Part shown: one piece after another, positions 1-26,745 of the stretch
How positions within the stretch are numbered: the stretch's first letter is position 1
Layout: each line of letters starts with the position of its first letter
IMG/VR virus record: IMGVR_UViG_3300035487_000961
Location: 1-27,094 of that record
Origin: a virus
DNA length: 27,094 bases
Strand: one strand, 5' to 3'
Translations under genes and position numbers: made by a program
Notes under the pieces: generated by a model
Databases searched by the model: none
What the model was told of the DNA's origin: nothing
What the model saw: only the letters and a program-made list of their open reading frames with translations

Positions 1-681
1 AATGGTGGTTATATTGTAAATGTACAAGGCGTTGATTGTTTCATGCCAGGTTCACTAGCAGGGATTAACAAGCTACATGACTTTGGATCTATTATTGGTA
101 CTGAAATGTATGTTGTGCCAGTAAGCTTCTCTCCAGAGAGAGGTACGATTGTTGTATCACATAGAAAATATTTACAAGCCATGATACCTCATGAGCTACA
201 GGCCGTTAAAGATAATATGGATGCTGATTATGTAGGTAATGTTACTGGAACTGCAAAATTTGGAGTCTTTGTTGAATTTAATAAATGTTTAACTGGTATG
301 ATCCACATTAATGACTTAGATGAGGAAACGATGCCGGCATTTAAAGCAAGGGATATTAAACCAGGTGATGAAATTAAATTTAAAGTAAAAGACGTGGTGT
401 CCAATACTAAAATCACCTTAACTCAAAAGGATAACGCAGTTGTTAGCCCGTGGTTAGATATTGCTACAAGATATCAAATTCCAACCACAGTCGAAGCTGT
501 TGTTAAAACTAAAAAGGAGTATGGTTTATTTATAAACATTGAAGACGGAGTAACTGGACTGCTACATGTTAGTGAACTAGAAGACGGCTTGATTGATGCT
601 TTTAATCCAGGTGATAAGATCACTGTACAGATTACAAGGATTGACATAGAAAGTAAAAAGGTATTCTTAAAGATGCCATAA
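1..681 (+). CDS. Ribosomal protein S1-like RNA-binding protein, 3' part (S1 domains)
   Basis: The reading frame is open from the first base, so this is the C-terminal 226 residues of a longer protein; the first internal ATG (base 43) is not the true start. I see three OB-fold S1 units. The first is partial (residues 1-55, opening with GGYIVNVQGVDCFMPGS and ending VVSHRK). The second spans about 75-142 (VGNVTGTAKFGVFVEF, then TGMIHINDL, PGDEIKFKV and KITLTQ). The third spans about 162-226 (VVKTKKEYGLFINIEDGVTG, then LLHVSEL, PGDKITVQI and KKVFLKM). This spacing matches the repeated S1 domains of bacterial ribosomal protein bS1, which binds single-stranded mRNA on the 30S subunit. I infer that it acts in translation or RNA binding during infection; a virion role cannot be excluded. 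It ends 56 bases before the next gene. The S1-domain call is firm; the role is not. Confidence 0.85.
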   Translation, partial: NGGYIVNVQGVDCFMPGSLAGINKLHDFGSIIGTEMYVVPVSFSPERGTIVVSHRKYLQAMIPHELQAVKDNMDADYVGNVTGTAKFGVFVEFNKCLTGMIHINDLDEETMPAFKARDIKPGDEIKFKVKDVVSNTKITLTQKDNAVVSPWLDIATRYQIPTTVEAVVKTKKEYGLFINIEDGVTGLLHVSELEDGLIDAFNPGDKITVQITRIDIESKKVFLKMP

Positions 682-703
682 TAACTTATGCATTTTAAAG
701 CGT

Positions 704-713
704 GATATATATT
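704..713 (+). promoter_or_regulatory. Candidate phage promoter element (GATATATATT) upstream of the amidoligase gene
   Basis: GATATATATT lies in the 56-base gap between the S1-like gene and the amidoligase gene, 24 bases before the ATG. The identical 10-mer recurs in the 14433-14486 gap, and GATATATA also occurs in the gaps at 25437-25463 and 26487-26780. It resembles an AT-rich -10 box or T4-type late element (TATAAATA), but the match is not exact and AT-rich DNA produces such words by chance. Confidence 0.35.
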
Positions 714-737
714 CAAACGTAATATCATACTCTTAAG

Positions 738-2045
738 ATGCAAAAATTAAATAGGAATTCAGATCGTAATACGATACTCAATGCTGCACTAGTTGGAGTC
801 GAGTTCGAATTCTACTCTAATATCGGCCTAGAAGAGACTCGAAAATCATTGAGTGATCTTTTAGGCCGACCTATTAGGCTTGAAACCAAAGCACACTCAG
901 ACTTCCAGCCATCGGCTGACGAGTTTAAATTAGAACCAGATATGTCTGGCGGAAAGGGATTAGCAGAGCTAGTTACTGGACCTATTCCATATAGGAACGC
1001 TAGAATCATGATTTCTAATATGATGAAGTGGATCCGAGAGAACGGATATACTACTGATAGAGCTTCAATCCACATTAACCTTTCTTTTGATAAAAAATAT
1101 TTAGAAGATCCTGCAATGATTTCTAAGATGAACGTCTTAAAGTTTATTCTTGATTTTAACGAAGCACAAGTTTACAAATTCTTTCCAGGTAGAGAGAAGT
1201 CAGTTTATGCCAAAAGCATAAAATGGATTATGCCTAAAGATGAAGCTTATTTCTTTGATGGAAGTAATATTTCGTCAATGAGTTATAAATTTGCAGACAC
1301 TAAATATTATGGAATTAACTTTTCTAAAAAAGAGAGCAATTATTTAGAGTTTAGGTATTTAGGTGGTGAAGATTATGAGAATAAAACAGAAGATGTATTC
1401 TATCTTACTGAAGCATTCTTAATGCAAATGTGGAATTCATGTAATGATCCGCTGTTTACCGAAGAGAATAAAATTGAACTTAGAAAAATACTTAATAAGA
1501 ATTTACCAATAACTGAATCCCTTAAAGATTGGACAAAGATTAATAAATATTGGCCGGAAATAAACATACTAGTAGATCTACAAGACCACCCACAAATTAT
1601 ACAACTAAGGTGGCCTGATATTAAAAAGAAGGTTATGGATTTAATTATAAACGGAGGTATGACTTCTGGTATAATTAATTACGATAGTGATTTAGGTAGA
1701 ATTCAAGTTAAAGACGGTAAGTTTGGGCTCTGTTATCTTCTACAAGGTTATGATTTTATAAATTGTAAAATAGGTGGTAATATTGAGACTTCTAATTTTT
1801 ATGGAGGTGTTCTTAAGGGTGCTAATTTATTAAGATGCGATTTATATAGAGCCACACATGCTGTAGAATCTAAAATAGAATCATCTTATGTACATGGAAG
1901 TTGCGAGTTAACTAATTGTTATGTCTTTGGTAGAGATGGTGTTTTTAAAGGTAAAATGATTGGAGGTATATTTAGAGAGGGTATGATGACAAAAGATGCT
2001 AGATTTGAAGATACTGAAATAGTAGTAAGCAAAAAAATAAAATAA
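738..2045 (+). CDS. Amidoligase-family protein with C-terminal repeat (beta-helix-like) region
   Basis: A protein of 435 residues. The N-terminal ~220 residues carry the signature elements of the glutamine-synthetase-fold amidoligase family in order: GVEFEF (20-25), LEPDMS (65-70) followed by ELVTGP (77-82), a histidine strand SIHINLSF (110-117), and EFRYLGG (204-210). Family members form ATP-dependent amide bonds between carboxylates and amines, and often modify peptides, cell-wall material or small metabolites. Residues 230-320 are a helical linker. From about 338 to 430 the sequence becomes a run of short strands (GYDFINCKIGG, NFYGGVLKGANLLRCDLYRA, FKGKMIGGIFREG), suggesting a pentapeptide-like right-handed beta-helix. 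There is no Shine-Dalgarno sequence; the ATG follows an A/T-rich leader. It sits between the S1-like gene and the virion genes, 4 bases before the next start. The amidoligase call is good; the substrate is unknown and it could be a virion component. Confidence 0.75.
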   Translation: MQKLNRNSDRNTILNAALVGVEFEFYSNIGLEETRKSLSDLLGRPIRLETKAHSDFQPSADEFKLEPDMSGGKGLAELVTGPIPYRNARIMISNMMKWIRENGYTTDRASIHINLSFDKKYLEDPAMISKMNVLKFILDFNEAQVYKFFPGREKSVYAKSIKWIMPKDEAYFFDGSNISSMSYKFADTKYYGINFSKKESNYLEFRYLGGEDYENKTEDVFYLTEAFLMQMWNSCNDPLFTEENKIELRKILNKNLPITESLKDWTKINKYWPEINILVDLQDHPQIIQLRWPDIKKKVMDLIINGGMTSGIINYDSDLGRIQVKDGKFGLCYLLQGYDFINCKIGGNIETSNFYGGVLKGANLLRCDLYRATHAVESKIESSYVHGSCELTNCYVFGRDGVFKGKMIGGIFREGMMTKDARFEDTEIVVSKKIK

Positions 2046-2049
2046 TAAG

Positions 2050-2916
2050 ATGAGTGAAATTAGAAGCGGAAATGAAACTGGTTTAAATACACCAAGGGAT
2101 TTTGGTGATAACTGTTTAAATGCATTTCTTACTGAAATTAGTGATGATATCACTGGGGCTTGTATGGTTCCAGTACAATTACCACAGCGTGAGATAATTA
2201 ATATTATTAAAAGAGCTAAGAAATGGTTCTATAAAAAATATGAGTATTCTGTAAAGGAGAACTATTACCATATACCTCGTAGTATTTTTGATACTGAATA
2301 CTTTAAGAGCAATAGAACATTAACACTACCACATGCAGGCTCTAGTGATCCTGAAGGGCTTAAGAAAGATTTGGGCGGTGCTGTTTATTCTGTTTTTGGT
2401 TTACATGATCTTTCTTCTGGCTGGAATTCAGCTGGTGGTGGAATGGATGTTAGATTCCAAAGCGGTTCTGATTTCTCTATGGAGAAGATGTTATTTAGGG
2501 GAATGTCAGAAGGTTCTGGTGCAGCTGAACAAGCAGAGGAATTACAGTTTTATGTGCTTAATGCTTCTTTAGCAGATATGTCTAGACAGATCTTAAATAA
2601 TCCAATCTCTTATAACTATTCACAATTAACTGGTGATTTAAAGATTATGGGTGATACTCCAAAGGGAGATGTTATACTTGAGGTATATGAGACCATCTCA
2701 GACTGTGCCCTGTACGACGATGAGATCTTCTTTAGGTATATTAGTGCAAAGATAAAACAATCACTAGGAGCTAAGTTAGGTATCTTTAAGTTCGCGATGC
2801 CTGGTAACGTTGAATTTGATTATGGTGCAATTAAAGATATGGGTGATGATGAACTATCTGCAATCGAAGAAGAGATTAAAGGTGATGAAGGAGTTGACTG
2901 GATGTTCCACTCTTAA
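2050..2916 (+). CDS. Virion structural protein, neck/connector-like
   Basis: A protein of 288 residues with no catalytic motif. The architecture resembles a family of myovirus structural proteins as I recall them. There is an N-terminal helix pair in which the chain runs PVQLPQREIINIIKRAKKWF and then YKKYEYSVKENYY (about 40-75), a Gly-rich middle, then a strand-turn (ISYNYSQLTGDLKIMGD, about 184-200). A conserved-looking helix-rich end follows, with EVYETISD, YDDEIFFRYISAKIKQSLG and an acidic C-terminus (DDELSAIEEEIKGDEG). The start lies 4 bases after the upstream stop, which has a second in-frame-independent TAA directly after it. It precedes the gp25-like gene by 19 bases, so it belongs to the tail/neck assembly module. 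The family match is from memory of the pattern and not tested; a baseplate role is the alternative. Confidence 0.5.
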   Translation: MSEIRSGNETGLNTPRDFGDNCLNAFLTEISDDITGACMVPVQLPQREIINIIKRAKKWFYKKYEYSVKENYYHIPRSIFDTEYFKSNRTLTLPHAGSSDPEGLKKDLGGAVYSVFGLHDLSSGWNSAGGGMDVRFQSGSDFSMEKMLFRGMSEGSGAAEQAEELQFYVLNASLADMSRQILNNPISYNYSQLTGDLKIMGDTPKGDVILEVYETISDCALYDDEIFFRYISAKIKQSLGAKLGIFKFAMPGNVEFDYGAIKDMGDDELSAIEEEIKGDEGVDWMFHS

Positions 2917-2935
2917 AAAATGAATATATATACAG

Positions 2936-3289
2936 ATGGAAATTTATATTAAAACACAGGAAGATCCTAATTTTGAAGTAAACAAACTTCAAATTGAAGA
3001 TGAGATACAACAACTCATTACTCAAATTGAAACTATTTTATTTACTAAAAAGGGAGATGTTCTAGGCAAGCCTGATTTTGGGTGCAGTTTAGAAGATATG
3101 TTATTTACGTTTGGATTTGCTGAATATAAAATTAGAAAAGAAATTAGAAACCAATTAAATGATTATTGTCCATTGTCAGAAAAACATAACGTGACAATTG
3201 ATATTACATTTGAAAAAGGTGAAGCTCGGGATATAGGCTATATAGATATTAAGATAGATAATAAGTATACAGTAGCAGTACGAGCATAA
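2936..3289 (+). CDS. Baseplate wedge protein, T4 gp25 / phage W-like
   Basis: A protein of 117 residues, close to the size of T4 gp25. The family core is visible: an N-terminal helix with QLITQIETILFT (26-37), then the hallmark segment KKGDVLGKPDFGCSLEDMLF (38-57), where the Pro-Asp-Phe-Gly-Cys turn is typical, followed by a helix with IRKEIRNQLNDY and two beta strands (NVTIDITFEK, YIDIKID). gp25 is a lysozyme-fold structural protein without enzyme activity; it joins the baseplate wedge and nucleates sheath assembly on the inner baseplate. The next gene is the gp6/J homologue, the standard partner. The start is the only reasonable ATG and lies 19 bases after the upstream stop. The leader lacks a Shine-Dalgarno sequence but contains an AT repeat, GAATATATATAC. 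Confidence 0.9.
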   Translation: MEIYIKTQEDPNFEVNKLQIEDEIQQLITQIETILFTKKGDVLGKPDFGCSLEDMLFTFGFAEYKIRKEIRNQLNDYCPLSEKHNVTIDITFEKGEARDIGYIDIKIDNKYTVAVRA

Positions 3290-3305: not shown

Positions 3306-5138
3306 ATGGCTGAATTAAAATTTTTAAGTAAAATTAAGACCACCGCTAATGATATTAGAAGGGATGCTTCTACATATATCACTAGAGTGTACAAGAGATC
3401 TTCTGTTCTATTTACAGCAGCTTCCCCGTTCGCTCAAATAATATCGGTTCTTTCTGATATTACTGAGCTCTTAATGTTTTATATAGAAGATTCTCTAGTA
3501 GAACAAAACATATATACAGCGCAGCATGCTGAATCTGTGTACGGGATGTCAAGATTAACTGGACATGATGCAACTAGAGGTTATGCTGCTTTTGGTGAAA
3601 TTAGATTTAAGTGGCAGCCAGGTGCTGATAAAGCAAAAATAGCAGGTAATGGAATAGTTATTGATGGTAAGGCTGAGGTTATATTTCAAACAAATGGGTT
3701 ATTTTATACACTACTGACACCAAAAGAGTTTTTTAGAATTGATAAAACTAACATGCTACCGGTAACAACCGCTGTCGTGCAGGGTGTTTTCGAGGATCAA
3801 ACATTTACATCAACTGGAGATGCGATGCAATCTTTTAATGTAAAAACTGGTGGTAAACTAACAGATCATAATAGAGTCTCGGTTAGTGTTAATGGAGAAA
3901 AGTGGACTAAACATGAGTCATTATATGATATATTAGCAAATGAAAAAGGCTATCTTATTAAAACCGGTATTGCCGGAGGTTTAGATGTTTATTTTGGAAA
4001 TGAAAACTTTGGAATGATACCGCCCGAAGGTGCTATCATTGAAGTTGAGTATTTAGTACATAAGGGTGCTGCTGGTAATATTTCAGACTCAACTGAATTA
4101 CAGGTAAAATTTACAGAGGAAGGCCAGGATGGCGCTGGTGTATTCCACGACCTTAATGAATTATTAATGATTGAAGTTACATCTTCCCCTAAAATGGGAG
4201 CTGATAGAGAAAGTATTGATTTCACAAAGATCTTAACTCCTATGGCATCTAAGAGCTTCGTACTGGCAACGCCAGATAATTATGAGTACTTCCTTTCAAA
4301 GTACGGGATGTTCTCTTACATTGACGCATACAATAGAACAGATGACAATTACTTAGATGATGATAATGTAATCTATATTTTTGCAACGCCAGATATAAAA
4401 AGAAAGGTTGCTAAGGGTCAAGATTATTTTTCAATGCCGGAACAAGAGATGTTCTTTGCTGATTCTGAATATGACGCAATGTTAAAAGCGCTGCAGGATT
4501 CTGGCCAAATGATGGTGACTACTGAAGTAAGTTTTGTAAAACCTAAAGTTAGAAAATACTCTATGGATATTGATATTAGATATTTTGAGGGCCATTTTAA
4601 AAGTGATATCTTTAATGATGTCAGAGGGGTTGTTGCAAATTATTTATTAAATATCACAAGAAGAGATAAATTGCCAAAATCCGATATTATTTACATTTTA
4701 GAAGAAATTGAAGGTATTGACTCAGTAAACGTTAGATTTATTTCTGAAACTGAAGAGACTGCTATTAGATTAGGTCGATATGAATCTATAACTACTACAG
4801 TGATTCCACAAGAGCCAGTTGTTTTAGAAGAAATTGGTAATGGTAAACAAAAATATGTTTTCTTTAAGAAAATAGAAACGGTTGAGAATGTATCTGTTGA
4901 TAGCACAACTGTTATACCAGATGATATTAAAGGCCTAGATCAATGGGGTGATATTATTATTGAAAAGGAAGAGGTTGTATTATTTAGAGGTGGATGGAAA
5001 GATAGAGATGGAGATGTAATAGAGGATGATGTCCTTATGAATGAAGAAGCAGCATTAAGTATTAACTTCGACCCAATACCAGTACCTAGATCTATTTATA
5101 CTAGAGCACAGGCTGGAAATAGAAAAGCACTTAAATAA
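3306..5138 (+). CDS. Baseplate wedge protein, T4 gp6 / phage J-like
   Basis: A protein of 610 residues, near the 660 of T4 gp6. The N-terminal part has the expected pattern of a helical start, then YGMSRLTGHDATRGYAAFGE (about 80-99), a beta-rich middle and an insertion. Around 310-345 the gp6/J-like core appears (PMASKSFVLATPDNYEYFLS, then KYGMFSYIDAY), followed by a strand NVIYIFATPD. Around 415-480 the C-terminal dimerisation-type domain (KYSMDIDIRYFEGHFKSDI, then IIYILEEIEGIDSVNVRF) is clear. gp6 dimers form the continuous inner ring of the contractile baseplate and bind gp25 and gp7. The location between a gp25-like and a tail-protein-I-like gene supports this. It starts 16 bases after the gp25-like stop and ends 2 bases before the next gene. 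The last ~130 residues are less conserved and may bind the neighbouring small protein. Confidence 0.88.
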   Translation: MAELKFLSKIKTTANDIRRDASTYITRVYKRSSVLFTAASPFAQIISVLSDITELLMFYIEDSLVEQNIYTAQHAESVYGMSRLTGHDATRGYAAFGEIRFKWQPGADKAKIAGNGIVIDGKAEVIFQTNGLFYTLLTPKEFFRIDKTNMLPVTTAVVQGVFEDQTFTSTGDAMQSFNVKTGGKLTDHNRVSVSVNGEKWTKHESLYDILANEKGYLIKTGIAGGLDVYFGNENFGMIPPEGAIIEVEYLVHKGAAGNISDSTELQVKFTEEGQDGAGVFHDLNELLMIEVTSSPKMGADRESIDFTKILTPMASKSFVLATPDNYEYFLSKYGMFSYIDAYNRTDDNYLDDDNVIYIFATPDIKRKVAKGQDYFSMPEQEMFFADSEYDAMLKALQDSGQMMVTTEVSFVKPKVRKYSMDIDIRYFEGHFKSDIFNDVRGVVANYLLNITRRDKLPKSDIIYILEEIEGIDSVNVRFISETEETAIRLGRYESITTTVIPQEPVVLEEIGNGKQKYVFFKKIETVENVSVDSTTVIPDDIKGLDQWGDIIIEKEEVVLFRGGWKDRDGDVIEDDVLMNEEAALSINFDPIPVPRSIYTRAQAGNRKALK

Positions 5139-5413: not shown

Positions 5414-8181
5414 TGAATAATTTAAGATATTTTAAAGGTGTTGATTACGATTTAAACCTCTCTAGCGATGATCCCGGAGAAGTTTTAAGAGGTGCGATCT
5501 ATTTTGATGAAGTTTCTGAGGGCTTATATGAAACAGTTAATCTTTTTATATTAGAACAAGCAGAGCACTTGGGAGACATTGTATTTAATAAACCTATTTC
5601 TGAAGGCGCACTTAACAGCGACATTAGCTCATTAGTATTTGCATGGGAATTAGATCCAACTGCGTCTGATGATATCATGATGTACTCTACGGGCCTTGCT
5701 AATGGCATCCCTGTAGTAACAGAATTAAAAACATATGAAGTAAACTTAGTTGACTATAGTGTTGTAGATTCGGTTAATGCTAATGGTCTTAAATCTATAA
5801 ATATTAAAGACGATTCAGCAGTACAGGTTAATATAGCTATTAAGTCTAACAAAGAAGGTTCTCATAAAAGAACTCTATCTATTTATACTAAAACAGCATC
5901 TGGTATAAAAACTAAGATTGCTGATATACTTTGTTACGGTGAAGTTGTTGCAGAAGATGAAAGATTAAAAATTCTTCTACAAAATTTTGGAGCTAGCTTA
6001 GATGAAACTGATTTTCTATTATTTAAAGATCATGACATTAGCGAGATGTCACCTGATTATATTTTATTAAATCAAAAAAGAAAAGAACTTCTTTTAGAGC
6101 TACATAATATTAAGCCATTTGTTGGTACATATAAAGCAATCTTAAATGCGATTGATTTCTTTGGTTATAATAAACTTACACTAAAGGAATACTGGATGAA
6201 TATTGATGGTACCGGAAGTAATTTTGGTAAGCTACATGCAGTCCCAGTTGCAAACTCATCTGTTAGGGGTGAGATGATTAGAAAACAAATGACTATTGAG
6301 TTACCATCTAGTACTATGAAGAAAACTAGTAAGTTTAGCCTTGTGTATAGGTTAAATGAAGCTGATGGAACTTATGATCAATGGGATTTTCCAAATGTAA
6401 AAGAAAGTTTTGATTATACTCCAGATGAAGTACTTATCAAGCTATATGGATTAAAACAAAAATTACAATTAGAATACTTACCGCTTAATGCCAAGATTGT
6501 TGACATAACAGCAGAGGGTGATTATTTTACACAAAAGAATCTTAATGTTTGGAATACACAAAACGCGATTGCTTACTTTAGTGAGGGACATGATTTAAAG
6601 TTTAAAGCAACTCCGGATAAAAGAGAAGTATTTATAGAAGATATGGCTTTGGTTATTGGTAATGTATTAGATCAAAATGATGCAGCCAGTAATTATGTTA
6701 AATTTTTAAATTATAGAGATCTAGATTATTCACTGTTAACCTCTAATGAGATGACAGAGCTACGTGGGATTGTTGAATCTTTTTATGACAATTACCATGA
6801 TCGTGATTTAAGCACATGGAACGAAGGAACTCCAGTTGGATGTCCAATAATTCTTGATGGCACGGAATCATTTGATGATATTTGGGATGAAGCTATTTTT
6901 ACATGGGAAGATGCAGATCCAACTGGAATTGCACCAACACCAAACGGTACTCAACAATTACATTCTGGGATCACTTGGGATAATTGGTGGAAACGTTGGG
7001 TGTATGAAATAGAATGGCTGGTTACAGAGTCTTCTGGAATAACTAAAACTTATAGAGGGCCAATTGATGATTATTTAAGACTGCCGGTTTTTATAACTAA
7101 TAATGGAAATATTAATGTTGAGATGAGAACTTATGATTTGTTTGGACACAGGTCTCATTATAGAGAAGATTCTATCACAGATGTTAAATTAAAAAACATT
7201 GAGTTATATGGTATTTATAAATGGCTAGAATCATCTACGTGGAATGACAAGAAATTGGATTGGTCTAAGTCAGGTGGATATTGGGATGTTGCTCAAGATA
7301 ATAAAACTACAATTGATGAGCATATTGCAGCATTATACTTAACATTAGATAGAGCTAATTATTTACATGATGAATCACAAGGTGTAAGATTCTCAACAGT
7401 GAGAAGATACCAAGATATTTATTCTGAGACTGGTTTTAGTGAAACAACAGGACCTTATAGATGGGAAGATGCAGAATATAGATGGCTAGACACTAAAAAC
7501 CTAGCATGGGACTATACTAGAGTTGGTATGGATCAAACTGCTTCATTTAAGATAAATGATATTAGTACTGGCGATGTTTTAAAAATTTGGCACATAAACC
7601 CTACTACTAACAAAGAGCTTACTGGTGAGATTACAATAACTTCTCCAACTGCAGCAAGTACTTTAGATATTGTTGCATGGCAAACTATTGCAAATGAACT
7701 TAATACGTCTACTGATCCTATAATTAGTAAGTTTAATTACAATCCAGTATTCTTGGATCCAGGTGCTATTGGAGGTAACGATGAACTATTTGTTTATATT
7801 ATTGCGGTGGGTAAAGAGTATTCTAGAAATTATGATTTTGATAAAGTTGCTATAAATAGTACATTTATCACAGAAGGGCTTCAGCATGTAATTCATTACA
7901 ATCCTACGTTTGATAACACTAGAGTATTTCATGATTTTGCTGAAGTAGAAAGATCTACTCATATTACAATTGCAGCGGAAGGTTCTCTAATGCCAGGTTT
8001 AAAAAATCCAACCTGGAAAATTCAACATTCAACGAACCCTGAAAATGCTGATATATACTATAATAATATGTGGTTCACTTATATTTTTCAAGAGGCAGGA
8101 TTCTATTCAATTGAATTAAATGCTGAAGACACATACGGAAATAAAAACGTTGTAAAACGTAACATGATAAAAGTAAAATAA
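5413..8181 (+). CDS. Large baseplate wedge protein with tail-protein-I-like segment and Ig/PKD-like domains (gp7 analogue)
   Basis: A protein of 922 residues. The first ~175 are beta-rich and Ig-like, with paired strands such as TYEVNLVDYSVVDSV and VQVNIAIKSN. Residues about 177-275 (RLKILLQNFGASLDETDFLL, then HNIKPFVGTYKAILNAIDFF and LKEYWMN) resemble the helical core shared by phage tail protein I and gp7, which link baseplate ring to fibres. Residues about 480-720 are unusually Trp-rich, with blocks such as FTWEDAD, ITWDNWWKRW and PYRWEDAEYRWLD. The last ~75 residues form a PKD/Ig-like domain ending YSIELNAEDTYGNKNVVKRN. The gene overlaps the upstream stop by one base. Its place directly after gp6/J and before a fibre matches tail protein I in P2. 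It probably acts as the wedge arm; T4 gp7 is of similar size (1032 aa). Confidence 0.7.
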   Translation: MNNLRYFKGVDYDLNLSSDDPGEVLRGAIYFDEVSEGLYETVNLFILEQAEHLGDIVFNKPISEGALNSDISSLVFAWELDPTASDDIMMYSTGLANGIPVVTELKTYEVNLVDYSVVDSVNANGLKSINIKDDSAVQVNIAIKSNKEGSHKRTLSIYTKTASGIKTKIADILCYGEVVAEDERLKILLQNFGASLDETDFLLFKDHDISEMSPDYILLNQKRKELLLELHNIKPFVGTYKAILNAIDFFGYNKLTLKEYWMNIDGTGSNFGKLHAVPVANSSVRGEMIRKQMTIELPSSTMKKTSKFSLVYRLNEADGTYDQWDFPNVKESFDYTPDEVLIKLYGLKQKLQLEYLPLNAKIVDITAEGDYFTQKNLNVWNTQNAIAYFSEGHDLKFKATPDKREVFIEDMALVIGNVLDQNDAASNYVKFLNYRDLDYSLLTSNEMTELRGIVESFYDNYHDRDLSTWNEGTPVGCPIILDGTESFDDIWDEAIFTWEDADPTGIAPTPNGTQQLHSGITWDNWWKRWVYEIEWLVTESSGITKTYRGPIDDYLRLPVFITNNGNINVEMRTYDLFGHRSHYREDSITDVKLKNIELYGIYKWLESSTWNDKKLDWSKSGGYWDVAQDNKTTIDEHIAALYLTLDRANYLHDESQGVRFSTVRRYQDIYSETGFSETTGPYRWEDAEYRWLDTKNLAWDYTRVGMDQTASFKINDISTGDVLKIWHINPTTNKELTGEITITSPTAASTLDIVAWQTIANELNTSTDPIISKFNYNPVFLDPGAIGGNDELFVYIIAVGKEYSRNYDFDKVAINSTFITEGLQHVIHYNPTFDNTRVFHDFAEVERSTHITIAAEGSLMPGLKNPTWKIQHSTNPENADIYYNNMWFTYIFQEAGFYSIELNAEDTYGNKNVVKRNMIKVK

Positions 8182-10715: not shown

Positions 10716-13700
10716 ATGAATACAAACAATTCTATTTCCAGCACGATAAAACAGCTTCTTGAGATTAATGTTAACTCATTAAAGACTTTCGAAAGAATTA
10801 ATGAAGCTATAACAACCAGTGAGCAGAACGTTCCTTTAGAAATATTAACATCTGAAGGAGGCACGAAAACTGTTTATGTTCCTTCTTTTGGTTTTATGAA
10901 GAAAGAACTTGAAAGATTAGATACTAATCTTAAAGCTCTTAGTGGGCTTGGCGTTGGTAATAGTACTATTCGACTTGCTGATGGTAGTTTCCAAAAGGTA
11001 ATTACATCTGTACTTAAAACACCAGCGTCTGACATAACTGTAATAAACAGACCAACTACTTTCGATATTAAATCTAATTACTTTTTTGAAGATTTCTTAA
11101 ATCCACTATTAGTAGCTAAATTTGATATTACAGGTCAAATACCTAACGATACAGAAAGAGTTTTAATTAAAAGGTTTATTTTTGATTCTACTGACCAAGT
11201 TGCAGTTGATTACTTTGATGATAATTTTATTAACACAAATGATATTACTTATACTGCAGCATTAGCCGGGCTTACAAATAATAAGATTGGTTATACTAAT
11301 GATGAGGAGGTAAGAGATATGCCTTATAGAAATAGTAGGTATTATGGTAAATTTGATGTTACAACAATTAGTGACTCTAAGAGAGAAGTTATTATTGATG
11401 GTGTAACTAAAACAAAACCTATTAAACTATACACACTAGATCAATTAACATACAGTGACTCTAATAAAGAATTAGATAGAACTGAGGTTATTAAGCCAGG
11501 TGATGAGTTAATGGTAAATTCATTATTAAAAAACACTAGGTATAAAATTACTAAGGTTGATGGCTCACAAGTTGAACTAGAGCTGGTTGAAGGTTTCGAA
11601 CCAATAAAAATAACCGCGGATTCTCTTGCTATTTATAAAAATGTTGGCAATACATTAGAGGCTGAGATTAATGTTGGATTTAATGAAAGAATGCTAATCT
11701 TTATTAAAGCAATTGATCCAGTATCTAAGATGTTAGCAGAGCAATGGTCACCTGGTGTTGGTTTCTATTCTAATGATCTTGAAATTACTAGAGAAGATGG
11801 TGTTGTACAAAACCTTGCAGAATACTATGCTGACGAAGTAGCTGATTTTGGTAGATATATTAAAGCACTAAAGGATGATGCAATCCCACCAGCGACTCAA
11901 GGTATTATACCAGATGCTCCGGTGTTAATTGCTGATAATTTTAAAGTGGTTCAAGTTAATAAACATTTAACTGAAAGTGATGCTGCTGTTAAAATTAAAA
12001 AATTAGTTTCTGACAAAGCTTCAGTAGAGGAGGCAATTAAGAAGTTAGACGATACTATCTCTAAGAAGAGATCAGAGATGGCAACTAAACTATATGCGTC
12101 TGCAATACAGAGCGATAGTGATAAAAATGAGCTTGCAGGTTTAATCGACCAGAGATCATCAGAGGCATCTTTATATAGCTCAATTGTAACACAGATACAA
12201 TCATTGTCAACTGATACAAACATCGGTGGCGTGGCCCCTAAGTACAGAGTACGTGGATTTTGGTCTATACCTTTTGCAAAAACAGTTGCAGGAACAATGG
12301 CTCAAAATGTTGTACAATTCTTTGTTCAATATAGATATGTTTCTACATCTGGTAAAACTCCTCCTGTTAATCAACTTGCGTTTCTTGAAGATTCAAAGGA
12401 GAAGACTGCTATTTTTTCAAATTGGTCAGAAGTTAAAACTGCTGCTAGGTCAAGGGCTAAAGATGCTGACGGTAAATTTAGATGGCAAGATTCAAAGGTT
12501 GAAGATGGCGAGGCTGTTAATTTTAATCAGCTAGATATTTCAATATCTCAAGGAGAGGCTATTGAAATTAGAGTTAAATCTATTTCTGAAGCCGGATATC
12601 CTGCAAACCCAATCTTATCGGATTGGTCTGAGCCGGTTTCAATCCCATTCCCAGTTGGTGAAGTTGATACAACTGATATTAATGCATTAATTCAACAAAA
12701 CATATCTGAAGTAACTAAAGTTAAATTAAATGAAGAGTTAGCAGCACAAGGAGTCTTTACTCACGTTGCAGGATCATTTACATCTAACGAAAACTTTTAT
12801 GCACATACTGCAACTGATTTAGCTTCAGGATTTTTATCCCCAGAGCAAAAACCAGTTTCTGTATTTGATAAGTTAACTGAACTTCAATTGCAAATTTCTG
12901 CATTACAAGAACAAATTGAAAATACTAAAGGTGAACTGCTTGTTAAACTTGTCGCGGAAGACGGTACGGTTACGATTATCAATAAAGATACAACAAATCA
13001 AATATTTGCTGGGTATTATACTGATGAAGTTTCTGATCTTACTGTTAAGAAGGGGCATATTGTTACTAAGACGTTTAAATTAGTAATAGAAAACACAAAA
13101 GCGACTACGTTAGAGTTGATTTCAAGGCTTACTGGTGATAGAACAAAACCAGCATATAAATCAGCAACTGCACTTGCAGCTGCTACCACAAATGGCTTTG
13201 GTAATCCAATAAACGACGCTGGAGCACAAACTACTGATAATAGGATTGTTGCAGATACTTACTATACAACCGAAGGGATGTATGACTTAGTGCCTATACA
13301 ATATCAAAATATTTCAAGTACTGAACTTAGTTCATTAGATTTATTACATGACACTCCATATCAATCAGCACAAAGAAGAGGGCAGTTTATCTATTCTAGA
13401 TTTATGGATATCTCAGGTACTCAATCGCTTTATAACATTGAGCCTATTGATACTACTGCAGCAATTGGATCTTTAACACAATATGAACATGTTCTTGGAT
13501 ATGCAGGGTTTGAAAGCTCAACAACAACAACACCACTAATAGTGAGTGGTAATGCCGGTGACGCTGACTTTATATGGGCAGGTACGTTTGGTAAGGACCA
13601 AGCCGGGACAAATAGCCCTGTTGATTTAACTCTTGATTTTAGTGCAGCTCAAATTGATGTAACTACATTTGGTACTGGTAATATAACAGCAAGTCAATAT

Positions 13701-14432
13701 AACAGCAGTATTTATTTACATAAAGAACACCCGGATTTACAGGGGCTTTATGCGGATTCAATCGCCGGTGTCGCCGACTCTGCTGCAGTAACAGAAACCG
13801 AACAACAAGCGTCGGTCCAGGCATTAGTTAATAATGCTATTCATACTATGCCTATTTCAGCAGCGATTGAAACTTCGGGATTAGTTTTGCCTTATCAAAT
13901 TTCTGGAGGCATAACTCTGGCTGATTCTAATATTTTATCTAAGAAGCAATTAGGTTATATGGAAATGGACGGCATGATAGCAGCTGGAGACAGATCATTT
14001 AAAATGTCGTTTGATGCAAATGACCAATATTTATTAGGTGGTAAATCAGTAGGAGCTTTCTTATTCTTAGCTCCAATTAATATGTTAACATTACGTACTG
14101 ATGGTGAGACTAGACAGAGTACTAAAAAGGTTCTACCACAGGCCAGTACCGAAAGATTAGGAACACAGACCAGTAGTAATAGTGTATCATTAGATGTTGT
14201 ATTCCAATATAGAATGACTGATTACTTTGGTAATGATTCATCAACTGATATTGGTAGAATTGGTGGATTCTCTAAGTTTGGATTTGGTAACTTAACTTAT
14301 ACAAAAACAATCGGCCTAGACATTTTTGATAAATCTGAAGAACAGTTCTCTTTTGATATAGAGGTATTCGCAAAGTATAGCCCAAGGGGTAAGAATTTAA
14401 ACTCTATTAGAGCAGCTCAATTAGTTAGATAA
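10716..14432 (+). CDS. Large virion protein (1238 aa) with coiled coils and an FN3-like region
   Basis: A protein of 1238 residues. The N-terminal helical section (SSTIKQLLEINVNSLKTFER) is followed by a beta domain starting near STIRLADGSFQKV (residue ~82), and then NRPTTFDIKSNYFFEDFLNP, a segment with the feel of a conserved phage structural core. Residues about 416-500 are a long helix/coiled coil (KIKKLVSDKASVEEAIKKLD, DDTISKKRSEMATKLYASAI). Residues about 505-650 have alternating strands with FN3-like character (VVQFFVQYRYVSTSGKTPP, then AIEIRVKSISEAGYP and WSEPVSIPFP), like the FN3 units of tail-tip proteins. A second short coiled coil (KLTELQLQISALQEQIENTK) lies near 717. The C-terminal ~500 residues are beta-rich. 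The gene starts 1 base after the upstream stop. A baseplate or tail-tip structural role is the best inference; no enzymatic motif is visible. Confidence 0.6.
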   Translation: MNTNNSISSTIKQLLEINVNSLKTFERINEAITTSEQNVPLEILTSEGGTKTVYVPSFGFMKKELERLDTNLKALSGLGVGNSTIRLADGSFQKVITSVLKTPASDITVINRPTTFDIKSNYFFEDFLNPLLVAKFDITGQIPNDTERVLIKRFIFDSTDQVAVDYFDDNFINTNDITYTAALAGLTNNKIGYTNDEEVRDMPYRNSRYYGKFDVTTISDSKREVIIDGVTKTKPIKLYTLDQLTYSDSNKELDRTEVIKPGDELMVNSLLKNTRYKITKVDGSQVELELVEGFEPIKITADSLAIYKNVGNTLEAEINVGFNERMLIFIKAIDPVSKMLAEQWSPGVGFYSNDLEITREDGVVQNLAEYYADEVADFGRYIKALKDDAIPPATQGIIPDAPVLIADNFKVVQVNKHLTESDAAVKIKKLVSDKASVEEAIKKLDDTISKKRSEMATKLYASAIQSDSDKNELAGLIDQRSSEASLYSSIVTQIQSLSTDTNIGGVAPKYRVRGFWSIPFAKTVAGTMAQNVVQFFVQYRYVSTSGKTPPVNQLAFLEDSKEKTAIFSNWSEVKTAARSRAKDADGKFRWQDSKVEDGEAVNFNQLDISISQGEAIEIRVKSISEAGYPANPILSDWSEPVSIPFPVGEVDTTDINALIQQNISEVTKVKLNEELAAQGVFTHVAGSFTSNENFYAHTATDLASGFLSPEQKPVSVFDKLTELQLQISALQEQIENTKGELLVKLVAEDGTVTIINKDTTNQIFAGYYTDEVSDLTVKKGHIVTKTFKLVIENTKATTLELISRLTGDRTKPAYKSATALAAATTNGFGNPINDAGAQTTDNRIVADTYYTTEGMYDLVPIQYQNISSTELSSLDLLHDTPYQSAQRRGQFIYSRFMDISGTQSLYNIEPIDTTAAIGSLTQYEHVLGYAGFESSTTTTPLIVSGNAGDADFIWAGTFGKDQAGTNSPVDLTLDFSAAQIDVTTFGTGNITASQYNSSIYLHKEHPDLQGLYADSIAGVADSAAVTETEQQASVQALVNNAIHTMPISAAIETSGLVLPYQISGGITLADSNILSKKQLGYMEMDGMIAAGDRSFKMSFDANDQYLLGGKSVGAFLFLAPINMLTLRTDGETRQSTKKVLPQASTERLGTQTSSNSVSLDVVFQYRMTDYFGNDSSTDIGRIGGFSKFGFGNLTYTKTIGLDIFDKSEEQFSFDIEVFAKYSPRGKNLNSIRAAQLVR

Positions 14433-14486: not shown

Positions 14487-17400
14487 ATGGCAATATTAAG
14501 CTTTCAAATAAACGGAGAAGAGTATACTGGCACAGCATTAGCAGCATGTAAGTTAGCGCTCGATGGTACCCTTAGATATTTTAACGCTGACAGATATGGC
14601 ATCCCAATTGTAGATGTCCCTATTTATATTGATAGTGATGGGCTTATTGATGATAAATTCATTGAGGATGAGCACGGCACAAAGGATCCAAATAAACAAT
14701 ACTGGTATAAAACTAATCTAGGTTACGTAATTAGAGTTGGCGAAGATGGTATAATTCGCGAAGTCTTTACATGCACTAACGAGGAAGCCCCAAAGCCTAA
14801 TTTTTTAACAGAGAGTAATTATAAACTAGATAATGTTGCAAGGCCTTTGTTAAGGACAAACCCTAAGTTAACTACAAATATTAAAATTATAGCAGATGGC
14901 GGTAATAAGATTTATTTAGAATCTATTGACGCGACGAAGGATTTAGCAAGTATTAAATATAAGCGAAATGAAATCAGCCCTGCTGGTTATTACTCATATG
15001 ATATTGCACATTTTTTTAATTCTAAGAAAACACCTTATGATATTGCATATAGAACTAGAAGAACAGAATCCGATCTCTCTGTATTAGACGACTATCAATC
15101 ACAGCTTGAGGAGGATTATCAATATGGGGCAACTCTAAACTATTCAAAATTATATGAAGAGAAGTTTAGAATATTTGCACCAATATGGGCAGATCTTAAT
15201 ATGCCAAAAAAGTTTGTTATATTTAAAGTAGCAAAACCGGCAACTAGCACTGCTTTTGATGATACTGCTGATGGCAACTTAGCTAGAATACAATCAATGC
15301 TAGCGAATGCTGAGATTGTAAAAACATTTGACTTAACAAATAATAGTTCAATTGGGCAATATATTAGAAATCACGTGCAAGATGAAAGATTTCCTGCAAG
15401 TCCTCTAACCTTTTCGTTTGAAAAAAATGAAAAGTCTTCTTATAATGGAATAGATTTAGTTAAAGGTGGGTTTACTAGTAAGCCTGAATATTTACATAAT
15501 GACTTAGTTAGAACAGATAAGCCTTTAATTGAGGCTAATGATTTTATTACCGATGGTTTTAAGAGAAACTCCATGGTATCTGCTAATATTTTAAACCTTG
15601 AATTTTTGTTCGATGATTTAACCGCAGCTGATTACTCTGTTAATCGATATTTTGGCTTATATGTAGATGATATTGATTCTGGATTAGGTGAAATTTCTAG
15701 TAGTAATTACGGTAAGCTTAAATTTAAATCAGTAGATTCATATGTAATGCCGGAATTAGGATACTCTGGGATACCTTCTAGTAAGTTAATACAAACTACA
15801 CCAACATTAGGTTATGTTTCTCTTGCTGATAAGTATTTTAAAATAGATTCAAATTCATATTATGATGAATCTAATCTAGACCTAAATGTTATAGACAGCG
15901 GCGATGAAATTACTAAGAATCTAGGGATTAAAGATACTGGTAAATCAATTAATATTGAAGAGTACCAAGCGCGAGGTTTTGATTTTGTAAAGTTTAAGAT
16001 TAAAGCAACTCCAATTATTAATGATAATATTGCTATTGTTGGGACTAAAGAAGAGGCTTATAATTTTAAATTTATTAAACACACTCCTGGTGAAACAATA
16101 ACAGTAACAGATGCTTCTGGTCCTAGGTTTTCTTTTTTTACAGGCCCAACTCAAGCGGATGGGTTTGCTAATTTTAAAGCCGGGTTTGATGCAAGCACCC
16201 TTGCAACGCTTATGTATTTTTCACAAGATAGTAACTCAGTTTACTTAACAGAAACTTTAGCTGGCCTTGGAGATCTAGAGTTGGCTATTACTGGAGCCCC
16301 TAATAATATTCTTAAAGTTACTAAAATTTATACTAACGTTAACTTAAATGAAAATACAGTATATGCTGCAGGTCCTGGAGTCTTACAAAAAGGTAGATTT
16401 GAAGGTAATAAATTTTCACAGGATGGGAAATTAAGTGATATAGCTATTGCTATTTCTGCTGCTATTAATAATTTAAAAGACTTTACATCATTTAACTCTG
16501 GTGAATATGTTTATGTTAAAAGCAATATTGCCGGTTATAGAACAATGCAAAATGCTTTTTTAATTAACTCAGGTAATAATGTTGATTTTATTGATGCTGA
16601 TAATGTAGATGCAGATAATTTACTAGGACTTGGTGCTAATGTGACTGGCGATTGGGCTGCTCATTATTTTAATGGCGGACATAATGAGAATCAATCAGTC
16701 CTAATAAGTGATAATACTATTAGTGAGGTTTCTGTTGGTGATTACATTCCTACTAAGTATAATAATACATATAATAAAGTTATTGATATTGTAGATAATA
16801 TTGATGATATAACTGGTGATTTTCATAAATTAATATTAGAAGATACAAACTCTATAAGCTCCGGAGAGGCCAGATTATTTAGAGAGAATAAGCTTCTTAT
16901 TGGTTTGTTTTCAGCATATAATGTATATGATTTAAACTTTGACTTTTACGATACTGCTAACTCAGATCTTAAAGGCCTAGGCAAAGAAAAATCTGCCAAT
17001 ATAAAATATAACCCATATAAAGATATTAAAGCTTTTTTAGCAACCAGTGAAATAGTAGGGAATCCTCCATATGAGGGACTTCTACCCGAAGATGTATTAG
17101 ATGAGGCCTATGATCTAGACCCTATAGATTATTTTTCAAATCTTTTACCGGTGTTGGAAAACGAAACTATAGAAGGGGTTGCTAGTGGGTTCTTAGCATC
17201 TGAGTTTGATAGACTACAAGAGAATAATACTAAGGAATTTGCTATTAACTCTAGGGTTGTGCCAAATATTAATAAGTGGGTTTTAAAAGATACACTTACT
17301 GCCAGAGAACAGCCTTATTACTTAAATGCTAACGAGGCATTTGGTAGAACTAATTTTGCCCCTGACTTGGATGTTGAAGGTAGAGATAGAAAATCATTTA

Positions 17401-19718
17401 CACATGAGTGGTTCTATATGGATAGGCCGCCTGGTTATGTTAGACCATATGATGTTAATAATGATTTTAATTATGTTAATTTTATTAGAGATTTTACTTT
17501 AAGCAAAGATTTATTCCTTGGCGTTGATAATGATTATTTTGATAAATTAATGGTATCTGATGGCTTAGAGGTGGGATTGTTTAATGCAAAGCCTTGGGTT
17601 GTAGAACAAACACCTCCGCTATGGAATATGACTGCTTTTCTAAAATCTGAAATAGTTAAAAAATATACATTAATAGAAAGAGGTAATGACATAGGGTTTG
17701 CTAGCACCTTCTTTAAGGGTATTAAAGTAACGTTTAAATCTAGAAAAGAATTTACTGCTGATAAAGCAACTGAATTTATTAAGAATACTGAGTTTAATGG
17801 TTATAAGTTTAGCACTATTGTTAAGATTAATAAAACTGCAGATGCTAATGGTGTTAATGGTATAGAATATGATGTAATACAGAATAAAGCACATAAATTT
17901 GTGATACTTTTTATTACACTAACGATTAACGATTTATTTATAGATAGTGAGCTGGCAACCAAACAACTATACGAATTAAACCATGCGATGGTTGAGGTTT
18001 CCGGAGTGAGCAATAATGATACGTGGAAATATGCTGATATTAATATATCTGGTGGTTTAGATTTTGTAAATGCTGATTTCTCTGGTACTGGACCTTATAT
18101 AGTATCTGGTATCGTTGACTCAAATGGAGCAGCTCCAGACTTTGAAAACCAGATTACAACTGGTGCGAATGGATTATATGGTAAACTTAAAATAACTTTC
18201 ATTGCCGGAACTTCATACATTGCCACAATACAATCCGTAAATTCTAGTAATGAATTAGTATTACAGAGTATTCCGCATTTGGAGGGTGCTCCTACTAGCT
18301 TATTGCCGACATCTTTGCTGACTCAATATTTACAACAAAACGCAGAGTACAGTTATATAGGAGGTGGTGTTAATGCCCATAAAAATATTTTAGAGAAGAT
18401 TTCAATTAATAATGTATCAAGTCTATTAAATTCAGGAAGTTCAGATATTAAATACACGACAATTGATGTTGATGGAACTGTTTCAAATAATAGGTTTATA
18501 ATTAACTTTGATGGGGGTAAAGAAATTATTAAGGAAGCAAAGTTAACAGTAACTGAAGATATTGAGAAGCCAAAATCATATAAGTTAAACTCAGGTAATA
18601 TTGGTTATAATATAGTAGAAGATACTCCATATTATCCTTTCTTGATTAGACATTCCGGTAACTATACTGTGGACATGAGGCCAGTTATTACCTTTACAGA
18701 CATATACACTCATTTTAAAGTTGATCGCCCGTATATTTCAATAAGTACTATTGAGCAAAATTATAATGAAGTGTTATATAAACATTCTATGACTAGGCTT
18801 TATGAAATAGAAATAGCAAGGGCTTATTATAATAAGTATAATAGAACTGGGGTTTCATTTAATCTTGGATTTATAAAAGATAGCATAGAACAAGTTGAGC
18901 TTTATCCTACAGAGGGTGGAGATCATGATAAAAACTGGGGTATGATTAAGAATCATTTTTACCATAAAGTGAATGAGGTTAACACAACTGGTGTTACTAA
19001 ATTAACAGCATCAAGTGAATTTACACCTCTTTATCCACTTATTAGTGAAATCGCTATTGACAAAAAAGACATTAATGTGTTTAGATCTTCTTGGGATTCT
19101 AATTATTATACTAGAGGACTCGTTAGTGGTGGTTCAATAAATGTACCTGGTACTTTTGATGTAATAGAAGAGAGGTCATATTTAGCATCTACAATGATGT
19201 CGTTGGAGAATTCATATAACTTATTAAGCTATACATCTAGTGTAGTTAATAGTAAAGAAGAATTAGATGATATTCTTAGAAACTCAAACAACACAACAGA
19301 TGTGGTTTTGTTTGAAGATAAGAGTACTATTATTGCTGATTTTTATTTAAATGAAGTTATCTATAAAAGACTTAGAGACTCTGGTGTGTTGGCAACGATG
19401 AATTTATACGTGAAACCAGCAGATTCAATTGGCGATAAAACTAGCCTGGTGGATGACTCAGAATCATACGCAATTAAAAATCTATTAAATGTGTTTACTG
19501 TAGATAGTTTAAATCTATTTACTAAAGCGTTTAAAGGATCTGGGTCGAATATTATTAACAGTAATACTGTTGATGATTTAAGTACTAATGGTTTTTCTGT
19601 TGATGTTAACTTTGGGTATAAACCACACGCTCAAACACCTCTTAATTTCAGATTGATATATAATAAAAGGTTAGGCTATTCATATGATATTAAGCCTATG
19701 ATAAAAATAAAGTCTTAA
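14487..19718 (+). CDS. Giant virion structural protein (1743 aa), unknown family
   Basis: At 1743 residues this is the largest gene here and I cannot assign a family. The N-terminus FQINGEEYTGTALAACKLAL (about 5-24) is followed by a short beta section. From about 115 to 265 it has a motif-rich domain (NVARPLLRTNPKLTTNIKII, YSYDIAHFFNSKKTPYDIAY, KLYEEKFRIFAPIWADLNMP) that looks like a conserved phage structural core. The remainder is mostly beta-rich with many Asn, Asp and Tyr residues. There is no signal peptide, obvious hydrolase motif or collagen stretch, and only short helical parts. It is preceded by a 54-base gap with a candidate promoter and hairpin, and followed after one base by the collagen-type fibre. 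Size and position suggest a long tail-fibre base or outer-baseplate scaffold. This is inference; a host-recognition role is possible. Confidence 0.6.
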   Translation: MAILSFQINGEEYTGTALAACKLALDGTLRYFNADRYGIPIVDVPIYIDSDGLIDDKFIEDEHGTKDPNKQYWYKTNLGYVIRVGEDGIIREVFTCTNEEAPKPNFLTESNYKLDNVARPLLRTNPKLTTNIKIIADGGNKIYLESIDATKDLASIKYKRNEISPAGYYSYDIAHFFNSKKTPYDIAYRTRRTESDLSVLDDYQSQLEEDYQYGATLNYSKLYEEKFRIFAPIWADLNMPKKFVIFKVAKPATSTAFDDTADGNLARIQSMLANAEIVKTFDLTNNSSIGQYIRNHVQDERFPASPLTFSFEKNEKSSYNGIDLVKGGFTSKPEYLHNDLVRTDKPLIEANDFITDGFKRNSMVSANILNLEFLFDDLTAADYSVNRYFGLYVDDIDSGLGEISSSNYGKLKFKSVDSYVMPELGYSGIPSSKLIQTTPTLGYVSLADKYFKIDSNSYYDESNLDLNVIDSGDEITKNLGIKDTGKSINIEEYQARGFDFVKFKIKATPIINDNIAIVGTKEEAYNFKFIKHTPGETITVTDASGPRFSFFTGPTQADGFANFKAGFDASTLATLMYFSQDSNSVYLTETLAGLGDLELAITGAPNNILKVTKIYTNVNLNENTVYAAGPGVLQKGRFEGNKFSQDGKLSDIAIAISAAINNLKDFTSFNSGEYVYVKSNIAGYRTMQNAFLINSGNNVDFIDADNVDADNLLGLGANVTGDWAAHYFNGGHNENQSVLISDNTISEVSVGDYIPTKYNNTYNKVIDIVDNIDDITGDFHKLILEDTNSISSGEARLFRENKLLIGLFSAYNVYDLNFDFYDTANSDLKGLGKEKSANIKYNPYKDIKAFLATSEIVGNPPYEGLLPEDVLDEAYDLDPIDYFSNLLPVLENETIEGVASGFLASEFDRLQENNTKEFAINSRVVPNINKWVLKDTLTAREQPYYLNANEAFGRTNFAPDLDVEGRDRKSFTHEWFYMDRPPGYVRPYDVNNDFNYVNFIRDFTLSKDLFLGVDNDYFDKLMVSDGLEVGLFNAKPWVVEQTPPLWNMTAFLKSEIVKKYTLIERGNDIGFASTFFKGIKVTFKSRKEFTADKATEFIKNTEFNGYKFSTIVKINKTADANGVNGIEYDVIQNKAHKFVILFITLTINDLFIDSELATKQLYELNHAMVEVSGVSNNDTWKYADINISGGLDFVNADFSGTGPYIVSGIVDSNGAAPDFENQITTGANGLYGKLKITFIAGTSYIATIQSVNSSNELVLQSIPHLEGAPTSLLPTSLLTQYLQQNAEYSYIGGGVNAHKNILEKISINNVSSLLNSGSSDIKYTTIDVDGTVSNNRFIINFDGGKEIIKEAKLTVTEDIEKPKSYKLNSGNIGYNIVEDTPYYPFLIRHSGNYTVDMRPVITFTDIYTHFKVDRPYISISTIEQNYNEVLYKHSMTRLYEIEIARAYYNKYNRTGVSFNLGFIKDSIEQVELYPTEGGDHDKNWGMIKNHFYHKVNEVNTTGVTKLTASSEFTPLYPLISEIAIDKKDINVFRSSWDSNYYTRGLVSGGSINVPGTFDVIEERSYLASTMMSLENSYNLLSYTSSVVNSKEELDDILRNSNNTTDVVLFEDKSTIIADFYLNEVIYKRLRDSGVLATMNLYVKPADSIGDKTSLVDDSESYAIKNLLNVFTVDSLNLFTKAFKGSGSNIINSNTVDDLSTNGFSVDVNFGYKPHAQTPLNFRLIYNKRLGYSYDIKPMIKIKS

Positions 19719-24884: not shown

Positions 24885-25436
24885 ATGATTCTTAATAGTA
24901 GAAATAATCTTTATGATTTTAAGTTTCCTAGAAACTTTATACCAGCTGAAGTGGCTGCCAAGTATAAGAATTATTTAGATAGAATACCTGGATCTCTTTT
25001 AGCAGAGCCAATCGACTATATTAATTATTCAATACAGGGTATTAATATACCTGGCGTTGCATTTGAACCAACAACACAGGCTGATAATGATGGAACGACT
25101 AGATACCACAGAGGTGCAGTCCCAATTCAAAATACTATTACTAGAGAATTTACAGTGACTCTACAATTATTAGATGGTTTTATTAACTATTGGATAATGA
25201 TGGACACTCTTCTTTATTATTATGCAAGGGCCACGAAAGACCCATATACTCCCCCAATGACCCTAAGAATTCTAGATGCTGAAGGTGCAAGTGTTGCTTA
25301 TATGGAGTTTCAAAAACCAATCATGACATCAATTAATTCACTAGATCTTAATATGGCACAGAATGTTGCTGAGTTTTCAACGTTTGAACTTTCATTCGTT
25401 TACAACAAATTAGATCTTAGAATAGAGATTGATTGA
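24885..25436 (+). CDS. Tail-tube fold protein, gp19/gp54-like
   Basis: A protein of 183 residues, close in size to T4 tail tube gp19 (163). The second half matches the pattern of tail-tube/tube-initiator proteins. A hydrophobic helix with aromatic residues (FINYWIMMDTLLYYYARATK, about 100-119) is followed by a strand set (PPMTLRILDAEGASVAYMEF). Next come the characteristic hydrophobic strand MTSINSLDLNMAQNVAEFST and a final FELSFVYNKLDLRIEI. The N-terminal half carries the first beta strands (YINYSIQGINIPGVAFEPTT). In T4, gp19 polymerises as the tube, and gp54 and gp48 share the fold at the baseplate. Standing apart from any sheath gene and near fibre and wedge genes, this copy may be a tube initiator or junction protein. 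Bulk tube is the alternative. It starts 11 bases after the previous gene. Confidence 0.65.
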   Translation: MILNSRNNLYDFKFPRNFIPAEVAAKYKNYLDRIPGSLLAEPIDYINYSIQGINIPGVAFEPTTQADNDGTTRYHRGAVPIQNTITREFTVTLQLLDGFINYWIMMDTLLYYYARATKDPYTPPMTLRILDAEGASVAYMEFQKPIMTSINSLDLNMAQNVAEFSTFELSFVYNKLDLRIEID

Positions 25437-25443
25437 TATATAC
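25435..25443 (+). promoter_or_regulatory. Candidate promoter element (GATATATAC) before the capsid-targeted protein gene
   Basis: GATATATAC begins on the last two bases of the preceding stop codon and lies 20 bases before the ATG of the next gene. It is one of four GATATATA occurrences in intergenic gaps of this window and is placed to drive the small head-protein and resolvase pair. Evidence is limited to recurrence and position. Confidence 0.33.
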
Positions 25444-26486: not shown

Positions 26487-26567
26487 CCTTATCTTTCCTT
26501 TAAATACATTACTTATATGCAAGGCTGGGAGATTTGTTCCAAACTAATTCAATTTAATTCAAAATAA
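26472..26567 (+). repeat. Direct repeat, copy 1 of a ~95-bp element
   Basis: Copy 1 runs from the last codons of the RuvC-like gene into non-coding DNA. It shares an identical 19-mer (TACATTACTTATATGCAAG, 26505-26523) with copy 2. A 5-pair stem (TGGGA at 26526-26530 with TTCCA at 26537-26541, 6-base loop) is also preserved. Identity by eye is roughly 80-85% with a few one-base indels. It may be a promoter cassette, an RNA element or a recombination duplication. Confidence 0.85.
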
Positions 26568-26602
26568 ATAATTAATAAGCTATTTAAGCTAATCTGTGCT
26601 TT

Positions 26603-26697
26603 GATACCTTAAGCCTAACCTTATCTTTTCTTAAATTACATTACTTATATGCAAGCCCTGGGAAATTGTTCCAAACTATTGCAAAATAATTCAAACT
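26603..26697 (+). repeat. Direct repeat, copy 2 of a ~95-bp element
   Basis: Copy 2 lies 131 bases downstream of copy 1 and is wholly non-coding. It keeps GATACCTTAAGC, which corresponds to the final codons of the resolvase gene (Asp-Thr-Leu-Ser) with a single silent-type change; a one-base insertion (CTAA) removes the in-frame stop. The identical 19-mer is at 26637-26655. The stem is TGGGA (26659-26663) with TTCCA (26669-26673), here with a 5-base loop, so the stem is kept while the loop varies. Confidence 0.85.
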
Positions 26698-26735
26698 ATT
26701 TTTTAAATAAGTTAAATGAAACAATTCTAAAGTTT

Positions 26736-26745
26736 GATATATAAT
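26736..26745 (+). promoter_or_regulatory. Candidate promoter element (GATATATAAT) upstream of the 58-aa gene
   Basis: GATATATAAT lies 35 bases before the ATG at 26781, followed by ATATGCAA, a word also found in the duplicated elements. The same GATATATAAT occurs inside the 3' end of the 1743-aa gene (19655-19664), about 55 bases before the fibre gene. A promoter role is inferred from position and recurrence. Confidence 0.35.

Follow-up and report, generated by a model that had tools for sequence, protein, structure and literature searches.

A predicted glutamine synthetase-fold amidoligase fused to a pentapeptide-type beta-helix within the virion gene module of large phages

Introduction

Phage amidoligases were reportedly defined by Iyer et al. 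in 2009. The amidoligase cassettes of phages LUZ24, UFV-P2 and phiEco32 contain a glutamine amidotransferase, a COOH-NH2 ligase, an ATP-grasp protein and a gamma-glutamyl cyclotransferase, and a cell-wall role has been proposed for the phiEco32/LUZ24-type enzymes (PMC10580990, PMC5498523).

Here we describe a gene found in a 27,094-nt stretch of viral DNA (IMG/VR record IMGVR_UViG_3300035487_000961, positions 1 to 27,094; hereafter the window), a fragment of a T4-like myophage in which Ad2, gp25, gp6 and a RuvC-like resolvase are recognizable. The gene (738..2045, + strand) is an open reading frame for a 435-aa protein with full-length homologues in IMG/VR, and its product is, by sequence and model, a glutamine synthetase (GS)-fold amidoligase joined to a pentapeptide-type beta-helix. 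With the phage members of PF12224 (LUZ24 gp18, phiEco32 gp84 and AUZ94978 of Atu_ph07) it shares the GS fold and the motif order ExE ... D.S..G.E ... HxN/H ... R ... KY..N ... EFR, but it differs from them in its C-terminal beta-helix, its setting in a virion module and the lack of a glutamine amidotransferase partner. The catalytic fold and motif order are also those of GlnA, from which the fusion departs by lacking the N-terminal beta-grasp domain and carrying the extra beta-helix; in the model, the catalytic sheet begins at residue 17 and ExE is located at residue 22, compared with residues 130-132 in GlnA. The helix has the quadrilateral beta-helix profile and fold of the pentapeptide-repeat proteins QnrB1, MfpA and McbG-like protein; unlike these, it is fused to an enzyme, is not acidic and bears a conserved tip motif. 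Both domains are already known, and no description of the fusion, of its breadth in large phages or of its virion-operon setting was found in the literature searched.

Domain organization and predicted structure

AlphaFold2, run on a 33-sequence alignment, gave a model of the fusion protein with a mean pLDDT of 89.7 and a pTM of 0.78. In this model, a GS-fold amidoligase domain (residues ~10-236; 765..1445) is followed by a helical linker, delimited by secondary structure (residues ~237-305; 1446..1652), and a beta-helix (residues ~308-428; 1659..2021), all encoded on the + strand. A Foldseek search of the PDB placed glutamine synthetases on top (E ~1e-4, probability 1.0), with a whole-chain TM of ~0.3 because a single domain of the two is in common; weaker matches fitting the helix include QnrB1 and the SV2 luminal domain. 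Among viral models, the uncharacterized A0A6J5PQ40 aligns over the full length (TM 0.86), and most of the named matches ranked after it are annotated as phage "amidoligase enzyme", that of Atu_ph07 included. The GS-like fold anticipated by the sequence-only reading was thus obtained by structure prediction.

The amidoligase signature motifs pointed out in that reading are all present, namely GVEFEF (residues 20-25), LEPDMS...ELVTGP (65-82), HINLS (112-116) and EFRYLGG (204-210), and residues 18-118 match PF12224 (Amidoligase_2) with 24.2 bits, above the cut-off of 22. PF12224 was found in eight of 33 family members (E<0.01), the more divergent ones scoring below the cut-off. Across 33 diverse homologues, down to ~30% identity, residues E22, E24, D68, S70, E77 and H112 are invariant, as are N114, R152, K189, N194, E204 and R206. 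The glutamates at positions 22, 24, 66 and 77 had been named as pairs expected in close homologues; this holds for E22, E24 and E77, whereas E66 is replaced by L, T or S in some homologues and the nearby D68 is kept. The motifs GPEPEF, HEVATAGQNEV, GMHCH and RIEVRF of Escherichia coli GlnA match the invariant residues in order and spacing, and we presume, from established knowledge of glutamine synthetase, that the residues of the two enzymes are equivalent one to one. The profile-profile match to the amidoligases of LUZ24, UFV-P2 and phiEco32 is weak (E 0.068), with the common motifs aligned in register, so that family membership rests on Pfam, on the bridge provided by Atu_ph07 and on the structure. 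The model, Foldseek and the invariant residues agree on a GS fold with ExE, E, HxN, R and EFR motifs. Since the GS-type active-site residues are invariant, the protein is likely an active ATP-dependent ligase. The fusion gene is under purifying selection, with dN/dS of ~0.03-0.05 in the GS domain, the most conserved part of the protein, and ~0.1-0.2 in the helix.

The C-terminal repeats, first seen as a beta-helix-like region of ~90 residues, do form a beta-helix in the model, and the domain is longer than had been thought (~120 residues, 308-428). Pentapeptide_4 of Pfam matches 18 of the 33 family members, and, when a profile was run against PDB sequences, pentapeptide proteins matched at residues ~309-394, with a McbG-like protein at E 6e-4 and MfpA and QnrB1 as weaker matches. 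Both the repeat profile and the quadrilateral helix of the model are those of a pentapeptide-repeat protein; a five-residue hydrophobicity periodicity was not significant by Fourier power (p 0.16, strongest period 2.65). Conservation of the C-terminal domain peaks, as an entropy minimum in the alignment, at the tip motif F.G.M.GG[IV]FR.G (residues 403-415; 1944..1982, + strand), in which R413 is invariant.

Distribution among phages

When viral contigs were scanned with a single query, 55 relatives were recovered; with profiles, each scan gave ~490-550. The homologues analyzed came from three overlapping IMG/VR scans and comprise the best 80 of the ~490-550 matches of each profile scan, which makes them a biased sample. 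Among the matches listed, 217 proteins longer than 380 aa form 32 clusters at 65% identity, and 216 of them carry the two-domain fusion over nearly the full length; likewise among the matches listed, more than 220 loci have at most one family match each. A search for other proteins with the same fusion, proposed beforehand, led to over 200 phage loci with one copy each. The gene appears to be inherited vertically and in single copy in large phages.

The carriers of the fusion are very large marine and freshwater phages, and each of the five huge-phage records examined (462-735 kb) has the gene. Those of 634-735 kb belong to the Mahaphage clade, for which Bacteroidetes hosts have been predicted (PMC7162821). 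The fusion family was not found in Lak-A1. The most distant family member is AUZ94978 of Atu_ph07, which has the GS domain in common and lacks the helix. When 84,980 species genomes of bacteria and archaea were scanned with a pattern, 33 stretches came up, none of them a relative, and plasmids searched for relatives of the fusion protein gave none either; a host origin of the gene, for which these cellular-genome and plasmid scans offer no relative, was rejected.

In 2025, nine large aquatic "moraphages" were reported to carry glutamine synthetase (PMC12619734). Some of these glutamine synthetases may belong to the present amidoligase family under a wrong name.

Gene neighborhood

The sequence-only reading had placed the amidoligase beside the virion genes, and this is confirmed by the genes directly downstream, all on the + strand, which encode a head-tail adaptor Ad2-like protein (2050..2916; phrog_211, E 1.8e-8), a baseplate wedge gp25-like protein (2936..3289; phrog_261, GPW_gp25) and a baseplate wedge gp6-like protein (3306..5138; phrog_219, E 2.9e-27). 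Upstream lies the gene of a multi-S1-domain protein (1..681, + strand; Pfam S1, E 1e-18), whose 5' end is cut by the window and whose position is conserved by synteny. When complete, this S1-domain protein is ~400 aa long; it is bS1-like, phage-encoded within a virion gene cluster, and has a promoter-like box of its own. The conserved neighbors sought in relatives were found in 55 marine loci, where the order S1-amidoligase-Ad2-gp25-gp6 is preserved to the limit of each contig, with sheath-like and baseplate-hub genes upstream of the amidoligase.

Across the family, 24 of the 32 clusters, which are not fully independent, have the amidoligase no more than ~9 kb from a gene for a neck, sheath-like or baseplate protein, even where gene order is otherwise scrambled. 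In huge phages L058, L155, L174, L175, L142, L177 and L171 the amidoligase is apart from the tail genes examined. The distances of the amidoligase follow those of Ad2, gp25, gp6 and the hub with rank correlations of 0.86-0.94 (10-18 representatives), values that are inflated by shared ancestry. Because its distances track the virion genes and its dN/dS is low, the amidoligase appears, on sequence grounds, to behave as a core virion-module gene rather than as a drifting metabolic gene.

In Atu_ph07, the homologue AUZ94978 is two genes from the portal gene, and it would be gp196, as worked out from the portal gp198 being AUZ94980. In the published Atu_ph07 study, which lists 131 virion proteins, CDS 170-215 form a cluster with many virion proteins detected by mass spectrometry (PMC6102473), and the homologue falls within this cluster. 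In Porphyromonas phages, a related amidoligase is located between adaptor and neck genes. Other amidoligases, in Porphyromonas and Christensenellales phages (L227, 8923-9876; L228, 5191-6747), are in or beside virion or packaging modules, so the link to the virion may extend beyond the present family.

Elsewhere in the window, two genes encode very large proteins (10716-14432, 1238 aa; 14487-19718, 1743 aa) whose matches are unknown-function PHROGs only, and the latter is followed by a gene (19720-21933) whose protein has collagen-like tail-fibre matches. An imperfect direct repeat of ~75 bases, AAGCTAACCTTATCTTT...TGTTCCAAACTA, was seen by eye at 26480-26690, overlapping the end of the RuvC-like gene and continuing past it.

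Promoter-like element and leader dyad

A promoter-like element, TGATATATA, precedes the amidoligase gene (703..711, + strand) and was recognized by sequence matches in the window and in relatives. In the window it occurs at 703-711, 8049-8057, 19654-19662, 25434-25442 and 26735-26743, all five on the + strand, where 1.4 would be expected on both strands; GATATATA is additionally present at 14440. Within 60 nt upstream of the gene, GATATATA was found for S1 genes (59/69) and amidoligase genes (59/108), and for none of the Ad2 (0/77), gp25 (0/71) and gp6 (0/73) genes. The S1-bearing loci contain 163 distinct GATATATA contexts on the coding strand, many of them related by descent, versus six on the opposite strand, and 116 of the 163 lie 10-60 nt before an ORF start (expected, 4%).

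The coding-strand bias and the position before ORF starts suggest that GATATATA is probably a phage promoter element. Since it precedes the amidoligase and S1 genes and is absent before Ad2, gp25 and gp6, the amidoligase probably heads a neck/baseplate unit, amidoligase-Ad2-gp25-gp6, in the marine clade. Given the genes served, and given that it resembles the T4 late box, we infer that GATATATA would be a late promoter.

The amidoligase leader also contains an imperfect dyad conserved in the marine clade (699..731, + strand; arms 699-708 and 722-731), noted in the leader alignment and by its folding z, the mean of which is ~-2.8 in single-sequence folding of 62 distinct leaders. A hairpin was thus predicted for single leaders, whereas RNAalifold gave none as a consensus of the aligned ones. 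The dyad overlaps the promoter-like box at 703-711, and its arms seem to covary between relatives. It could possibly act as an operator or in translational control.

Possible function

From the computed fold, motifs, fusion, conservation and gene context we infer activity, late timing, substrate and docking role as follows, a reading that we favor tentatively. The amidoligase would be expressed late, together with the neck/baseplate unit. In its N-terminal domain, E22/E24, D68/E77, H112 and E204 would bind ATP and metal ions, and a carboxylate would be activated as an acyl phosphate and then coupled to an amine. The C-terminal beta-helix would serve as a rigid arm, with the conserved tip as the site that docks on the target. 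The place of the gene at the head of neck/baseplate genes suggests a part of the virus particle as this target. The likeliest candidate is a virion protein of the same transcription unit, for instance one of the neck or baseplate, which would be amidated, tagged or cross-linked while the particle assembles. Co-transcription with virion genes does not in itself prove a virion-protein target. The sequence-only reading had listed a host cell-wall peptide, a host protein and a virion protein as candidate substrates, and the gene context favors the last of these.

Modification of peptide side chains in the wall or envelope of the host, which would block superinfection or ease lysis, would agree with the enzyme family, which is that of the phiEco32/LUZ24-type amidoligases with their peptide-enzyme cassettes and the role already proposed for them. 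The cassette of that type was looked for, and its partner genes were not found or were unlinked: class-II glutamine amidotransferase (PF13522) was found in none of 19 large records, with 14 of 14 controls positive; gamma-glutamyl cyclotransferase (PF06094) occurs in 4 of 15 records, at least ~24 kb from the amidoligase and never linked to it; and COOH-NH2 ligase (PF14395) gave no match in the records examined, nor in the control genomes. Together with the position of the gene within a virion module, the amidotransferase and cyclotransferase results weaken the cell-wall role, which we consider possible but unlikely.

About equally improbable is that the amidoligase has the S1-domain protein, the translation apparatus or a small molecule as its target, the last perhaps a polyamine conjugate that serves in packaging DNA, and that the position of the gene among virion genes reflects timing only. 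In the marine clade, the amidoligase gene always has the S1 gene as its upstream neighbor, with the same promoter-like box, and GS-fold enzymes with polyamine substrates are known. However, most huge-phage clusters lack the S1 gene next to the amidoligase, so the S1 protein cannot be the general substrate, and no polyamine gene was seen within the window.

The protein might also be a catalytically dead scaffold or a structural part of the tail, given its place in the virion module and a rigid beta-helix of the kind also found in phage structural proteins; the invariance of the GS-type catalytic residues down to ~30% identity, in the most conserved domain of the protein, makes this quite unlikely. 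Another possibility is that the helix mimics DNA in the manner of Qnr and MfpA and so targets gyrase or a defence protein that binds DNA. A weak resemblance to QnrB1 and MfpA in profile and fold speaks for this role, which was nevertheless rejected as highly improbable, because the strongly acidic surface of these mimics is absent: the helix has a net charge of 0 in the window protein, and its charge ranges from -10 to +3 in relatives.

The amidoligases of phages have been predicted for years, and none is known to have been assigned a substrate. A single-copy amidoligase that heads neck/baseplate genes and lacks the cell-wall partner searched for points to virion proteins as a possible new substrate class. 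In surveys of large phages, the fusion may pass for a metabolic glutamine synthetase. More speculatively, it could be a peptide ligase dedicated to virion modification in large and huge phages that probably infect Bacteroidota. With its beta-helix as a built-in docking arm, it would attach an amide-linked group to a neck or baseplate protein, or cross-link that protein, as a core step of particle assembly.
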